From NCBI GenBank assembly GCA_014239955.1, contig JAAZXW010000004.1:1-64000 (forward strand): a DNA stretch of 64,000 nt. The letters run 5' to 3'. This DNA is from Methanobacteriota archaeon (GTDB lineage Archaea > Thermoplasmatota > Poseidoniia > Poseidoniales > Thalassarchaeaceae). A program made the translations under genes and the position numbers. Positions 46,914-51,659 of this stretch are shown one piece after another; position 1 is the first letter of the stretch; every line of letters starts with the position of its first letter. The notes below the pieces were generated by a model, which did not search any database, was not told the origin of the DNA, and saw only the letters and a program-made list of their open reading frames with translations.

Positions 46914-47177
46914 ATGAAGGCATTCAGGGCGCACGGGGCATACAGGGCAGGCAAGAGGGACCAACCATTCTCAGTGGACCTTGTAGCGAGCGATGAAGAC
47001 GATGCCATGGAGAGGGTCCTCTCAACCTTCGGCAGCAGGCACAGGGTCACTAGGAGATTCATCATGGTAGACGGCATCGCCGAGATCGATCCTGCAGATT
47101 CGACCGCACCCACAGTTGTAGCCCACTTCGGGCCAACGGAAAGGTCAGCGCCTGCTTCCAAAACAGAGGAAGAGTGA
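46914..47177 (+). CDS. rpl18a: Large-subunit ribosomal protein LX (L18a/eL20)
   Basis: An 87-residue archaeal ribosomal protein. The N-terminal MKAFRAHGAYRAG and the SRHRVTRRFIMVDGI segment match the LX/L18a family, in which GSRHRVxR is strongly conserved. Acidic C-terminal tail. In archaea this gene commonly neighbours prefoldin alpha and ftsY (established), which occur 2.7-4.5 kb downstream here with sulfur-metabolism genes inserted between. Confidence 0.9.
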   Translation: MKAFRAHGAYRAGKRDQPFSVDLVASDEDDAMERVLSTFGSRHRVTRRFIMVDGIAEIDPADSTAPTVVAHFGPTERSAPASKTEEE

Positions 47178-47246
47178 CCCAGACCACGCAAAACCTCCCA
47201 TGATACTGGGCAATTCTGAAAGGTGACGCGTCTGGAGGACATTCAC

Positions 47247-47798
47247 ATGAAGAAGTGGCTGATGAGGCAATATTGGCGCATTCAGCAGAGCCAGGCAATA
47301 ATCGGGCTGGGCTTCTGGACGGCCACCATAACCCTCCTGGTGTGGCCCTACGTATCGTGGAGATTCGCCTCAAACGAGACGCTCCTGCTCATCCCGATGA
47401 CATATGTCGGCCTCATTGGAATCGCAACCGCGGTCCTCACCATCGTTCTTCTGGCCGGTTTCTTCTACGACGTGACCTTCGGTCTGTGGAGGGACCACAT
47501 CACAGTCAACCAGGAGAGGAACCCATTCACCACATACAAGCTGAACCCGACTTGGGGGATCGTGATCGCACAAACCAACGCAATACTGAGGCGAGTAGCC
47601 CCTGAGGACGAGGAAATACAGAGGTACTGCAAGTTCGTCGATAGGATGCTGGTGTGGAACTCCAAGGAGGAGATTTGGGCCAGGGCCATGTCCTCATGGA
47701 AGGAAATCATGGGTGACGAGGACCCCTTCCTCTTCTACCTAGACGAGGAAGCCAGAAGGAACCTGGAAGAAGCAGCGGATAAACTCGAGGACTTCTAG
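47247..47798 (+). CDS. Two-span membrane protein, unknown function
   Basis: About 183 residues. Two hydrophobic segments (AIIGLGFWTATITLLVWPYV and YVGLIGIATAVLTIVLLAGFF) are followed by a soluble C-terminal region with charged helices (EEARRNLEEAADKLEDF). ATG 47247 has an ideal GGAGG 5-9 bases upstream, so it is preferred to the GTG at 47223. No family recognised. Its stop lies 9 bases before the CysQ start, so it may belong to that operon. Confidence 0.72.
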   Translation: MKKWLMRQYWRIQQSQAIIGLGFWTATITLLVWPYVSWRFASNETLLLIPMTYVGLIGIATAVLTIVLLAGFFYDVTFGLWRDHITVNQERNPFTTYKLNPTWGIVIAQTNAILRRVAPEDEEIQRYCKFVDRMLVWNSKEEIWARAMSSWKEIMGDEDPFLFYLDEEARRNLEEAADKLEDF

Positions 47799-47807
47799 AG
47801 GTCTCCG

Positions 47808-48608
47808 ATGTCGTTCGACCCCCACGAGATAGTCAACATCGCCATTGATGCCGGACAAGCGATAATGGGGGTCTACGACTCTTCGGGGAGCATCGAGGTA
47901 GAGACAAAGAACGACGACACCCCACTGACCAAAGCCGATCTGGCCGCACACGACGTAATCATCCAAGGCCTCGCTTTGGCTGATCCCGGTGCGCCGGTCG
48001 TCTCAGAGGAGGGTAGAGTCGGCAACCCCCTTGATAGCGAACTCGCATGGCTGGTCGACCCACTTGATGGTACGAAGGAGTTCATCAAGAGGAACGGGAT
48101 GTTCACGGTGAACATCGCACTCATGAGGAGGGAGGGGGACAGGTGGAATCCCATTTTCGGGGTCGTGCATGCCCCAGTGGCACGAACCACTTGGTTCGGC
48201 GGGAAGGCAATACCAGCCACGAGGACCACCGATGCTGCATCGGGGCCCATCTCTGTGAATGCCAATACCTCCACACCGGTGAGGCTTGTCGCAAGTGGAA
48301 GCCACCGCGCGGAAAGAGACGAAAGATTTGCAGACCAAATTGGCAGATACGACCTAGTGAGAATGGGGTCTTCTCTCAAGGCATGCGTCGTTGCAGACGG
48401 ATCCGCCGACCTGTATCCGAGATTTGGACCCACTTCCTGCTGGGACATAGCAGCAGCCCACGCAGTGGTCGAGTCCGCTGGGGGTTTCGTCCTGGGTCCA
48501 GACTGTCAAACATTGGACTACGACTTAGTTGATGACGTGTTAAATCCATACTTCTTGGTTACCTGCAGTGCCGAGTGGAATGAGATTTGGTATCAGAATC
48601 AGGATTAA
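47808..48608 (+). CDS. cysQ: CysQ/inositol monophosphatase family phosphatase
   Basis: A 266-residue phosphatase of the FIG family. DDTPLTKADLAAHDV contains the first ligand set, PVVSEEG the Glu, WLVDPLDGTKEFIKRNG the DPxDGT metal/substrate core, and GSSLKACVVADGSADLYPR...CWDIAAAHAVV the C-terminal WDxAA motif. The EFIKRNG extension is characteristic of 3'(2'),5'-bisphosphate nucleotidase (CysQ), which recycles PAP from sulfur activation. The neighbouring CysC-like gene supports this reading over inositol phosphatase. Confidence 0.88.
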   Translation: MSFDPHEIVNIAIDAGQAIMGVYDSSGSIEVETKNDDTPLTKADLAAHDVIIQGLALADPGAPVVSEEGRVGNPLDSELAWLVDPLDGTKEFIKRNGMFTVNIALMRREGDRWNPIFGVVHAPVARTTWFGGKAIPATRTTDAASGPISVNANTSTPVRLVASGSHRAERDERFADQIGRYDLVRMGSSLKACVVADGSADLYPRFGPTSCWDIAAAHAVVESAGGFVLGPDCQTLDYDLVDDVLNPYFLVTCSAEWNEIWYQNQD

Positions 48609-48646: not shown

Positions 48647-49531
48647 ATGGGTAACAAGGTAGTTTGGCTGATTGGGCTCTCAGGAGCGGGAAAGACGACG
48701 ATTGCAGAAGCTGCTGCAAAGAGATTCGGCGCAGAGCTCCTAGATGGGGACACAATTCGCGATTTCTTCTCCAACAACGACTTCTCGAGGGAAGGAAGGA
48801 TGAGGCACCTTCTAGGAATCGCAAAGATGGCTACGCTAATGGCCAAGCATACCCCTGTGATATGCTCGTTCATCACCCCATACGAGGACGTGCGTGAGAG
48901 GATACTGGAAATCCTCCCCCAGAATTCCACTATGGTGCACGTGGCAACTTCGCTTGAAGTATGCGAGGACAGGGACGTCAAGGGCCTCTATGCCAAGGCA
49001 CGATCGGGAGAGATTTCCAATTTCACTGGAATTTCAGACCCATTCGACGAGCCAAAGTGCGCACATATCACCCTAGATTCAAGCGGCGTTCCGGGCCACA
49101 CAGTAGACGACATGGTCGAGATGCTCTCACACCTCTTCGAGAAGCCCAAGGCTGTTTTGCTTCCAGGTCGGTGGCAGCCACTGCACGTGGGCCACGAGTG
49201 GCTAATTCAGCAGGAACTCGACAAGGGAAAGAGAGTTGTCGTCGGCATTCGAGACACCCCTGTCACCGAATCGGACCCATACCCGGCCCATCTCCGTAAG
49301 CGCATGATCGAGCACAGGTACGCGGACGAGGATGTCGAAGCGTGGATAATGCCAGACATCGAGGCCGTGTCTTACGGGCGCAAGGTCGGATACGAGGTAA
49401 GGGAGGCCCAGGACATCCCTGCAGAGGTTTTCGCAGTATCCGCCACAGGAGTCCGAGGCGGCAATCGGGCAAACGTCACAGAACGAGTCATGGAGTTCAT
49501 GATAGCAGAAGGTATCTGGGACGGAGAGTAG
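48647..49531 (+). CDS. cysC: Adenylylsulfate kinase fused to an NMNAT-like nucleotidyltransferase
   Basis: A 294-residue two-domain enzyme. Residues 1-165 form an APS kinase: GLSGAGKTT (P-loop), LLDGDTIRDFF, FSREGRMRHLLGIAKMATLM, VICSFITPYEDVRER and KGLYAKARSGEISNFTGI with the usual order. Residues about 168-294 form a nucleotidyltransferase with GRWQPLHVGHEWL (HxGH) and a late VSATGVRGG, like archaeal NMNAT (NadM). ATG 48647 is chosen over 48587, which overlaps cysQ. The kinase makes PAPS from APS; the second domain's substrate is unknown. The pairing with CysQ suggests sulfation or sulfur assimilation. Confidence 0.88.
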   Translation: MGNKVVWLIGLSGAGKTTIAEAAAKRFGAELLDGDTIRDFFSNNDFSREGRMRHLLGIAKMATLMAKHTPVICSFITPYEDVRERILEILPQNSTMVHVATSLEVCEDRDVKGLYAKARSGEISNFTGISDPFDEPKCAHITLDSSGVPGHTVDDMVEMLSHLFEKPKAVLLPGRWQPLHVGHEWLIQQELDKGKRVVVGIRDTPVTESDPYPAHLRKRMIEHRYADEDVEAWIMPDIEAVSYGRKVGYEVREAQDIPAEVFAVSATGVRGGNRANVTERVMEFMIAEGIWDGE

Positions 49532-49532
49532 T

Positions 49533-49826
49533 TTGCCCTCAGACATTGTCAAGGGATTCGCACTAGTCCTCTGTTCTATTTTGCTCCTGCCATTATCATT
49601 GGACTTGATGCAGGATCACGATGACGTTGAGACGGAATATGAGAGGGAGTGCGACCTCCAGTACCGCGCATTAACCGGCAATGCCAGCTCACCCGACTGG
49701 GGTCTTTGCAGCGAATTGAACGAGGACCGGTCTAGGAAGGCAACCTTGTTCATGGCTTCATTGGGATTATTCGTACTAACCGGGCTCGTGGGAACGGTCA
49801 TGGTGCTTCCAAGTAACGAGAACTAG
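49533..49826 (+). CDS. Small two-span membrane protein, unknown function
   Basis: A 97-residue protein with hydrophobic helices at about residues 8-22 (GFALVLCSILLLPLSL) and 74-91 (TLFMASLGLFVLTGLVGTV) around an acidic loop with two Cys (YERECDLQYR and DWGLCSELNE). TTG start at 49533, one base after the cysC stop. No family recognised; a real gene is likely because of spacing and a clean membrane topology. Confidence 0.55.
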   Translation: MPSDIVKGFALVLCSILLLPLSLDLMQDHDDVETEYERECDLQYRALTGNASSPDWGLCSELNEDRSRKATLFMASLGLFVLTGLVGTVMVLPSNEN

Positions 49827-49877: not shown

Positions 49878-50399
49878 ATGACTGAGCCTGACAGGGAAGA
49901 GCTTCAGCGTTTGGCCAAACTAGTCGAGGCCAACAGAGAGAGGCTCCAGGCACTCGAACAGCAGATTCGAAACCTAGAGGGGATCAAAATTGAACAGGAG
50001 CATGCGATGGAAGCACTCGGATCCATCTCTGAGGATGGAGCCAAGGGTGCGATGGTGCCTCTCGGTGCCGGTGTCCAAATAGTCGCAGACATCCCTGCAG
50101 AAGCAGGAGCAGTGGTAGACATTGGAAGCAGAGTCCAAGCCGAGAAGACGAGACCAGAGGCAATTGAGATACTCAGAAAGAGGAACGAGGAACTGAACGG
50201 AATAATCACATCAGTCAGGAAGGAACACGAAGAACTTGAAAACCACGTGGTTGCACTTGCAAACAGGTTCAATGAGATAGCCAATGGAACCCAAGCCCCT
50301 GAGGATGAAACCCCGCAGGAGACCAAGCAGAGCCAGGCAAATCAGCCAAAGCGCAGACCAAGGAGAAAGAGAGGCACAGAACTCACCCTGGATGATTGA
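49878..50399 (+). CDS. pfdA: Prefoldin subunit alpha
   Basis: Subunit of the prefoldin chaperone hexamer that feeds unfolded proteins to the thermosome. Two long coiled-coil helices (DREELQRLAKLVEANRERL at the N-terminus and EAIEILRKRNEELNGIITSV at the C-terminal half) flank a beta-hairpin region with MVPLGAGVQIVADIP and VVDIGSRVQAEKT, the standard alpha class hallmark. 173 residues, slightly longer than usual, with a basic tail. Overlaps the usual archaeal neighbour ftsY, 9 bases downstream. Confidence 0.92.
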   Translation: MTEPDREELQRLAKLVEANRERLQALEQQIRNLEGIKIEQEHAMEALGSISEDGAKGAMVPLGAGVQIVADIPAEAGAVVDIGSRVQAEKTRPEAIEILRKRNEELNGIITSVRKEHEELENHVVALANRFNEIANGTQAPEDETPQETKQSQANQPKRRPRRKRGTELTLDD

Positions 50400-50408
50400 G
50401 GATTTTCT

Positions 50409-51659
50409 ATGGGGCTTTTCGATCGCTTTCGCAAGAAGGTCAAACAGGCCGATGACGATACGAGCATAATGGCGGAAGACGGTTCCGAGGAGGCCGATCA
50501 AGCAATTGCCGATAGAGAGGCAGCTCTCAGAAGATTGAACCAAGTAGTGGACCAACCCGAGGGGCCGTCAGAAACCGCAAGCGAGTGGGACGACTTCGAC
50601 GATGAAGTATCAGACCCATTCTCTGGCCCAACCAACTCCAAGGAGAGGAAGCGTGTCGCTCGTGACCAAGCTACCAGGGAATCCCAGAAACCCACCGATC
50701 CGCCGTCGAAAAGAGGACTCATGGACTCCACCACGGGAAGGAGGCTGGTGGAGTCGGATTTGAAATTCGAAATTGACCTATCCGAATACCATACTAGCAT
50801 AGGGGGGATGGTGATTAGCGGAGGCCCCGTATTGGATCTGATTCTCGAGGAGTTGGAGGACGAGCTACTGTCGTCCGACATGGGACATGATGCCGCATCG
50901 GAACTGCTAATCAGCCTACGTTCACACCTAATCGGCTCCAGAGTCAGCCGGAAGACACCACTTAGCGAAGTAGTGGAAAGAGCACTAAGGGGAGCTCTCC
51001 TGTCCCTCCTCAGAGCCGGCTACTGGGATTTTGACAGGACAATCAGGGATTTCGTAGCAGAGGGGAAACCCGTCGTCATCATGATGGTCGGCGTCAACGG
51101 GACAGGCAAGACAACCACTTCCGCAAAGATAGCCAAGAGGTTGGACGACCAAGGATTCGGTGTGGTGCTAGCCGCTGCAGACACCTTCAGGGCAGGAGCG
51201 ATAGATCAGCTGGCGATCCACGCCGACCGATTGGGAATCAGATGCATCAAGAGCCAGCGTGGAGGGGATTCCGCAGCAGTCGCTAGGGACGCCATCGAAA
51301 GCGCCAGGGCCAAGGGTGACGATGTCGTTATCATAGATACATCAGGTAGAATGCAGAACAAGTCAAACCTGATGGAGGAACTACAGAAGGTGCATAGGGT
51401 GACCCAACCCCATCTCGTGATTTTCGTTGCAGACGCACTTGCTGGGAACGACGCAGTCACCCAAGCAACGGAGTTCCAGCGAAGACTGGCATTCGATGGA
51501 GCCGCACTTTGCAAACTCGACACAGATGCAAGGGGGGGGGCAGCGCTATCGATATCGCATGCCACCGGCCGGCCAATCATTCTAGCCGGAACAGGCCAGG
51601 GCTACGACGACATGGAGCCGTTCGATCCAAACTGGCTTGTAGAACAGATCCTTTCGTGA
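50409..51659 (+). CDS. ftsY: Signal recognition particle receptor FtsY
   Basis: GTPase receptor for SRP at the membrane. G1 GVNGTGKTTTSAKIA, AAADTFRAGAIDQL (I-box/G2), DTSGRMQNKSNLMEEL (G3) and CKLDTDARGGAALS (G4/G5 region) are present. The N-terminal 140 residues are acidic (EEADQAIADREAALRRLN and other stretches), as in FtsY membrane-targeting regions; the first 10 residues are amphipathic (GLFDRFRKK). 416 residues. Prefoldin alpha immediately upstream is the typical archaeal partner gene. Confidence 0.95.
   Translation: MGLFDRFRKKVKQADDDTSIMAEDGSEEADQAIADREAALRRLNQVVDQPEGPSETASEWDDFDDEVSDPFSGPTNSKERKRVARDQATRESQKPTDPPSKRGLMDSTTGRRLVESDLKFEIDLSEYHTSIGGMVISGGPVLDLILEELEDELLSSDMGHDAASELLISLRSHLIGSRVSRKTPLSEVVERALRGALLSLLRAGYWDFDRTIRDFVAEGKPVVIMMVGVNGTGKTTTSAKIAKRLDDQGFGVVLAAADTFRAGAIDQLAIHADRLGIRCIKSQRGGDSAAVARDAIESARAKGDDVVIIDTSGRMQNKSNLMEELQKVHRVTQPHLVIFVADALAGNDAVTQATEFQRRLAFDGAALCKLDTDARGGAALSISHATGRPIILAGTGQGYDDMEPFDPNWLVEQILS

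Follow-up and report, generated by a model that had tools for sequence, protein, structure and literature searches.

An open reading frame in the genome of a Thalassarchaeaceae (Marine Group IIb) archaeon, whose assembly is 79% complete, encodes an APS kinase (CysC) fused to a nucleotidyltransferase (NT) domain of the HxGH superfamily. The host is placed in Marine Group IIb by its nearest named relatives, Candidatus Thalassarchaeum and other Poseidoniales. We propose, with a probability of roughly 0.8, that this single polypeptide acts as a PAPS synthase in which the NT domain is an ATP sulfurylase of NadM/NMNAT lineage, being neither Sat nor CysDN. This proposal is made because the fusion exchanges with CysD and CysNC at a single genomic slot, is not found together with them in uncontaminated Poseidoniales genomes and is accompanied by CysQ and by users of PAPS, and because relatives of the NT domain pair with kinases elsewhere, occur mostly in genomes without Sat or CysD and form a clade of their own. 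The first step of sulfate activation is known to be catalysed by either of two ATP sulfurylases, Sat and CysDN, which are unrelated to each other. The NT domain probably represents a third independent class that arose from the NMN adenylyltransferase lineage. Together with APS kinase it would form a compact, mobile unit for making PAPS, one that takes the place of CysDN in archaea. Many viruses, haloarchaeal plasmids and bacteria with reduced genomes, in which no known sulfate-activating enzyme is otherwise present, would carry this unit along with sulfotransferases. Neither an NMNAT-like ATP sulfurylase nor a CysC-NT fusion was found described in a literature search that left out most subscription journals and preprints.

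The window, which is the whole 64,000-nucleotide stretch of DNA analysed, contains the fusion gene as a single frame of 294 codons, running from an ATG at 48647 to a TAG at 49529-49531 (Table 1). An in-frame TTG at 48587, upstream of this ATG, is unlikely to be the start codon. A sequence-only reading of this DNA had described a CysC-type kinase and an HxGH domain on one open reading frame next to CysQ, and this arrangement is borne out by the frame itself and by matches to PF01583, CTP_transf_like and TIGR01331, the last above its equivalog cut-off (234.4 versus 228.8 bits). The PF01583 (APS_kinase) match covers residues 4-143 (5e-38; 130.9 bits, with the Pfam gathering threshold at 21.1), and the equivalog cut-off of TIGR00455 is narrowly missed (129.5 versus 138.7 bits). 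The GLSGAGKTT, DGD and KGLYAKARSGEISNFTGI (FTGI lid) motifs are all intact. Judged by its sequence, the N-terminal domain is certainly a full member of the APS kinase family (PF01583). The DGD motif is described as essential for APS kinase (PMC11697783).

The NT domain is matched by CTP_transf_like over residues 171-236 (23.9 bits against a cut-off of 21), and AlphaFold2 models reach a mean pLDDT of 92.8 for this domain and 91.9 for the full-length fusion. Among 76 NT sequences, G174, R175, Q177, P178, H180 and H183 are invariant. The position of R202 is occupied by arginine in 97% of the family, and G244, R245 and G248 of GRKVGY (GRxVGY in the family), a motif absent from NadM, are invariant. 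The joining of the two domains does not stem from faulty assembly, because the fusion is carried by 46 of 244 Poseidoniales genomes and by haloarchaea. Full-length Poseidoniales copies are 77-96% identical, and haloarchaeal copies are ~43% identical in the NT domain. The protein has no match in a library of defence systems.

Table 1. Positions in the window of the fusion gene, its domains and motifs, and its neighbours
Feature	Position	Strand	Remarks
Ribosomal protein L18Ae	46914..47177	+	PF01775; syntenic marker
Conserved ORF (orf47223) upstream of CysQ	47223..47798	+	left border of swapped slot; no Pfam match
CysQ, 3'(2'),5'-bisphosphate nucleotidase (PAP removal)	47808..48608	+	TIGR01331; directly upstream of fusion
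APS kinase (CysC)-NT fusion, P0001	48647..49531	+	putative bifunctional PAPS synthase of 294 aa
APS kinase domain, residues 1-161	48647..49129	+	PF01583; PDB APS kinases from 1e-29
P-loop GLSGAGKTT, residues 10-18	48674..48700	+	sequence
DGD motif, residues 33-35	48743..48751	+	sequence
APS kinase lid KGLYAKARSGEISNFTGISDPF, residues 112-133	48980..49045	+	sequence; aligned to solved APS kinases
HxGH NT domain, residues 162-294 (~127 aa)	49130..49528	+	proposed ATP sulfurylase
GRWQPLHVGH, residues 174-183	49166..49195	+	HxGH nucleotide-binding motif
R202-D203	49250..49255	+	Gly-Ser of NadM at same place
GRKVGY, residues 244-249	49376..49393	+	NT family signature; putative acceptor-site motif
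SATGVR, residues 265-270	49439..49456	+	superfamily SxTxxR motif; S265 and R270 invariant
Small ORF 3' of fusion	49533..49826	+	no family; not conserved in slot
Prefoldin alpha	49878..50399	+	TIGR00293; right border of swapped slot
FtsY	50409..51659	+	TIGR00064; right border marker

In sister genomes, two alternative contents, CysD plus CysNC or the CysC-NT fusion, are found at the slot bounded by CysQ and prefoldin/FtsY, and L18Ae, preceding orf47223, is a shared syntenic marker to the left of the slot in both states. The order orf47223-CysQ-CysD-CysNC-prefoldin-FtsY is found in G005, G027, G032, G036 and G052 (in the last case over two contigs), and G124 has the order CysQ-sulfotransferase-CysD-CysNC-prefoldin-FtsY. 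The CysD and CysNC proteins of the slot score above curated cut-offs. The order orf47223-CysQ-CysC-NT-(prefoldin)-FtsY is found in the window and in G022, G034, G039 and G042; at some fusion loci a sulfotransferase on the opposite strand lies between CysQ and CysC-NT. FtsY is in place in G022, G042 and G034, where the prefoldin ORF is overlapped by a longer frame, and the prefoldin frame was confirmed for G022. Both states occur within single genera: G022 and G042 (fusion) versus G032 and G052 (CysD plus CysNC) in genus g11, and G034 and others (fusion) versus G124 (CysD plus CysNC) in genus g4. In the latter genus, the sulfotransferases adjoining CysQ in G034 and G124 are orthologous, with 74% identity.

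Because CysQ and sulfotransferase track both states, with an orthologous sulfotransferase in each, both slot contents presumably serve the same users. CysC is common to the two states, and therefore the NT domain appears to stand in for CysD and CysN, that is, for ATP sulfurylase. CysD and CysN(C) thus share with the fusion a genomic slot and the partners CysC, CysQ and sulfotransferase, but they are unrelated proteins, a PP-loop CysD and an EF-Tu-like GTPase CysN. The fusion has no GTPase, and neither the CysD PP-loop domain nor the CysN GTPase domain is present in P0001. The fusion kinase, although a member of the CysC family (PF01583), branches apart from the kinases of Poseidoniales CysNC, in a tree that is weak at depth. 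Since the two are not close, the gene was probably exchanged whole, as judged from these sequences. Descent of the fusion kinase from a Poseidoniales CysNC kinase, with the sulfurylase part alone swapped, is unsupported by the separate clades, again with the proviso that the tree is weak at depth.

The NT domain might instead adenylylate some other small acid or metabolite, with the kinase acting on the 3'-OH of the adduct to give a 3'-phosphoadenylyl-activated group other than PAPS. The ancestry of the domain in NadM, not in Sat, would suit such a chemistry. However, the fusion replaces CysD and CysNC in situ in Poseidoniales, CysQ and an orthologous PAPS-type sulfotransferase are kept, and the fusion kinase retains canonical APS kinase motifs, so we consider activation of another metabolite unlikely. 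The sequence-only reading had left the choice between a new route to APS and the activation of another metabolite. The sequence evidence now strongly favours the new route, given the slot exchange, the lack of Sat and CysD, the sulfotransferase and CysQ partners and the pairing of kinase and NT elsewhere.

The distribution of the fusion was surveyed in 60 genomes of the family Thalassarchaeaceae and in 244 Poseidoniales genomes. Most of the genomes are metagenome-assembled, with a completeness of 60-97%, so that single absences are weak evidence. In the family, 23 genomes carry the fusion (some copies being incomplete at contig ends) and 8 others have a CysNC-type kinase match. A strong CysD match (PF01507, ~1e-57) is present in exactly these 8 genomes and in no fusion genome. 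Far from always being present, a canonical sat gene was found neither in any of the 60 family genomes nor in the assembly, 79% complete, from which the window comes. Genomes in which no canonical ATP sulfurylase was found do carry the fusion, a point on which the sequence-only reading had proposed a check. Across the 244 genomes, the fusion occurs in 46 and CysNC in 32, with an overlap of one (G120) where 6 are expected (P = 0.007, relatedness ignored). G120 is not accepted as a genome with both routes. Its fusion contig (L261, C43; 4.7 kb) is a contaminant, being 98.5-99.8% identical to G022 of the Thalassarchaeaceae, and the G120 bin belongs to the other Poseidoniales family. Within this set, fusion and CysNC never occur together in an uncontaminated genome.

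The presence of PAPS-related genes follows that of the two routes. CysQ is found in 18 of the 23 fusion genomes, in all 8 genomes with CysD and CysNC, and in 1 of the 29 family genomes with neither; the corresponding fractions for sulfotransferase (PF00685) are 21/23, 6/8 and 7/29. Fisher tests of fusion genomes versus those with neither give 1e-8 for CysQ and 1e-6 for sulfotransferase, values that overstate independence because the genomes are related. The 7 genomes with a sulfotransferase in which neither route was detected probably reflect gaps. Assimilatory sulfate reduction was considered as a sink for PAPS and rejected: fusion genomes yield no strong PAPS-reductase-type match, only weak matches to PP-loop proteins of ~320 aa. 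PAPS in these genomes is therefore probably used for sulfation, not for reduction. In a study published in 2019, CysD, CysN and CysC of MGIIb, within Marine Group II, were assigned to the supply of PAPS for sulfotransferases, and the passages of that study consulted make no mention of a CysC-NT fusion (PMC6864105). One 9-kb contig in a Poseidoniales bin (G113) carries a short kinase-NT fusion of bacterial or viral type adjoining a sulfotransferase-like ORF (L264:4910-5677), which reflects either lateral transfer or contamination.

The NT domain is related by ancestry to NadM, on the evidence of profile comparison and structural modelling. It shares the fold and the N-terminal half of NadM; its best profile match is MJ0541 (2.4e-14), and its model aligns to NadM (1ej2) with a Foldseek TMq of 0.70. 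The TIGR01527 (NadM) model gives the fusion only 21.6 bits against an equivalog cut-off of 181.2, a cut-off that the NadM homologues of Poseidoniales themselves also fail to reach. In phylogenetic analysis, the NT sequences form their own clade of 77 rows (support 100/92), apart from archaeal, bacterial and Poseidoniales NadM. A separate NadM homologue is kept in 6 genus mates, whereas the window's source assembly, with its completeness of 79%, yielded none. In NadM, a Trp in the NMN-binding stretch stacks on the nicotinamide. When the NT profile is aligned to NadM of M. thermautotrophicus (MtNMNAT), 16 + 8 residues of the latter (~24) are gapped. The MtNMNAT sequence used agrees with the segments of it in a separate profile alignment; the same gap is seen in the alignment to MJ0541. 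What is missing, between the third strand and SxTxxR, is the NMN-binding stretch with the nicotinamide-stacking Trp. Compared with NadM, the NT family thus has R202 in place of Gly, has gained GRxVGY and has lost the Trp stretch.

These data bear on whether the NT domain could be a working NMN adenylyltransferase for NAD synthesis that was fused to CysC by chance, with APS coming from elsewhere. We regard this as very improbable, because the NMN-binding residues are missing, the clade is separate even from the NadM of Poseidoniales, genus mates with the fusion keep a NadM of their own, and no other source of APS was found in fusion genomes. In its favour are the best sequence and fold matches, which are to NadM, and the failure to find NadM in the window's own incomplete genome. 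The description of the second domain as NadM-like in the sequence-only reading therefore holds for ancestry and fold, but not for the likely function. The phylogenies it had called for place the NT domain apart from NadM and the kinase apart from that of Poseidoniales CysNC, and the expectation against which it set its proposal, tight clustering with NMN adenylyltransferases and a conserved NMN site, is contradicted by the clade and the deletion.

Sat (PF01747), including Sat-CysC and PAPSS proteins, resembles the NT domain in belonging to the HxGH superfamily, in having SxTxxR and an intervening GR motif, and in sometimes being fused to APS kinase; the two are proposed to catalyze the same reaction. 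Sat, however, is ~390 aa long and has an N-terminal domain that the ~127-aa NT domain lacks. There is no PF01747 match to the fusion, and hhalign finds no significant match between NT and Sat (probability 7%). Direct homology of the two was considered but goes undetected, and Foldseek gives NadM and not Sat among the matches listed. The Sat of L236 reads HxxH, GRDHAGVG and ISGTRIR where the NT family reads HxGH, GRxVGY and ISATxIR, a parallel in motif order that is suggestive only. Human ATP sulfurylase (PAPSS1) depends on the histidines of its HxGH motif (PMC11697783), and both of these are invariant among the 76 NT sequences, the motif of the fusion being H180-V-G-H183. The NF004040 model (bifunctional Sat/APS kinase) runs past the kinase into the NT domain in L126:5989-6954 (residues 46-309) and L062:5983-6882 (residues 50-289), which may be a faint hint of Sat-like similarity.

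In the proposed reaction, the NT domain would bind ATP through its GRWQPLHVGH (HxGH) and SATGVR (SxTxxR) motifs and sulfate near R202 and R245, and would transfer AMP to the sulfate to yield APS and PPi. APS would then be handed to the N-terminal kinase domain, where phosphorylation of its 3'-OH would produce PAPS and pull the unfavourable first step forward. PAPS would be used by sulfotransferases, and the leftover PAP would be removed by CysQ. We infer sulfate as the acceptor, APS as the product, the channelling of APS and an acceptor-site role for R202 and GRKVGY; an ATP sulfurylase activity (EC 2.7.7.4) of the NT domain is suggested by the locus exchange and the distribution. Alternatively, the NT domain could be an inert domain or a regulatory nucleotide sensor attached to CysC, with APS either taken up from outside or supplied by an enzyme that has escaped recognition. 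Some PAPS synthases do have inactive or regulatory domains, and catalysis by the NT domain is a prediction. This alternative is nevertheless highly unlikely: the catalytic residues of the HxGH fold, in GRxQPxHxxH and SxTxxR, show little or no variation across 76 divergent sequences, stand-alone NT genes also accompany kinases in viruses and bacteria, and we know of no case of APS import.

A search with an NT-domain profile revealed cellular relatives of the putative ATP sulfurylase in haloarchaea, Omnitrophota, Scalindua, several CPR groups, Marinimicrobia, Flavobacteriales, Pelagibacteraceae (SAR11), SAR86 and alphaproteobacteria. An APS-kinase-like protein is fused or close to NT at all 46 cellular and all 80 sampled viral loci, and at none of 34 NadM-type loci. 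The order CysC-NT is found in Poseidoniales, haloarchaea and some bacteria, and the order NT-CysC in Omnitrophota, Scalindua and the virus L126; elsewhere the NT and kinase genes are separate, lying adjacent or nearby. The same two domain orders are on record for Sat-CysC and PAPSS. Sulfotransferase genes are present no more than 6 kb from NT at 41 of 80 viral and 9 of 33 cellular loci, versus 0 of 32 NadM control loci. Among 32 carrier genomes outside Poseidoniales, Sat was found in 1 and true CysD (E < 1e-50) in 7, with both in G065. The 25 carriers with neither include the isolates Haladaptatus halobius and Halocatena pleomorpha. If the proposal is correct, a third ATP sulfurylase would explain PAPS in archaea, CPR, Omnitrophota and viruses that are seemingly unable to activate sulfate. 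Annotations such as "CysC only", "cytidylyltransferase-like" and "NadM" would need to be corrected, and pathway calls for abundant ocean microbes would change.

Viral contigs gave no match when searched with the fusion protein alone, but hundreds of matches when searched with an NT-domain alignment. In many of the viral contigs L126-L205, genes for the APS-kinase-like protein and NT lie side by side, often with a sulfotransferase directly upstream. These sets of kinase, NT and sulfotransferase are apparent viral sulfation cassettes; if the proposed function is right, viruses carry such cassettes in self-contained form. Most of the viral kinases are ~130-150 aa long and lack the canonical FTGI lid, and several bacterial ones are likewise short and lidless. 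The substrate of these short kinases may be different, and in those branches a drift in substrate is possible, which lends something to the idea that another metabolite is activated.

Haloarchaeal plasmids (L037-L045) have a repeated operon of sulfotransferase, small ORF and CysC-NT, usually followed by YqcI/YcgG; in L041, YqcI/YcgG is instead located upstream on the other strand. A phage family annotated as "kinase" (phrog_10255), from Stenotrophomonas-type phages, resembles the fusion in joining a kinase to NT and in matching both domains. It differs in its low identity to the window's fusion (27-29%), its lidless kinase and its phage-gene neighbours, including NADAR, with no sulfotransferase seen. 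In one case (L033 2995-3735) such a fusion lies beside a NADAR-domain gene, and in another (L034 3995-4726) beside genes for a phosphatase and an Fe(II) oxygenase, with no sulfotransferase annotated near either. The role of these two phage fusions may be different. In two other viral contigs (L128:5039-5983 and L130:5039-5983), the APS kinase continues in frame into a HAD-like domain (TIAIDFDGVIH) and adjoins an NT gene.
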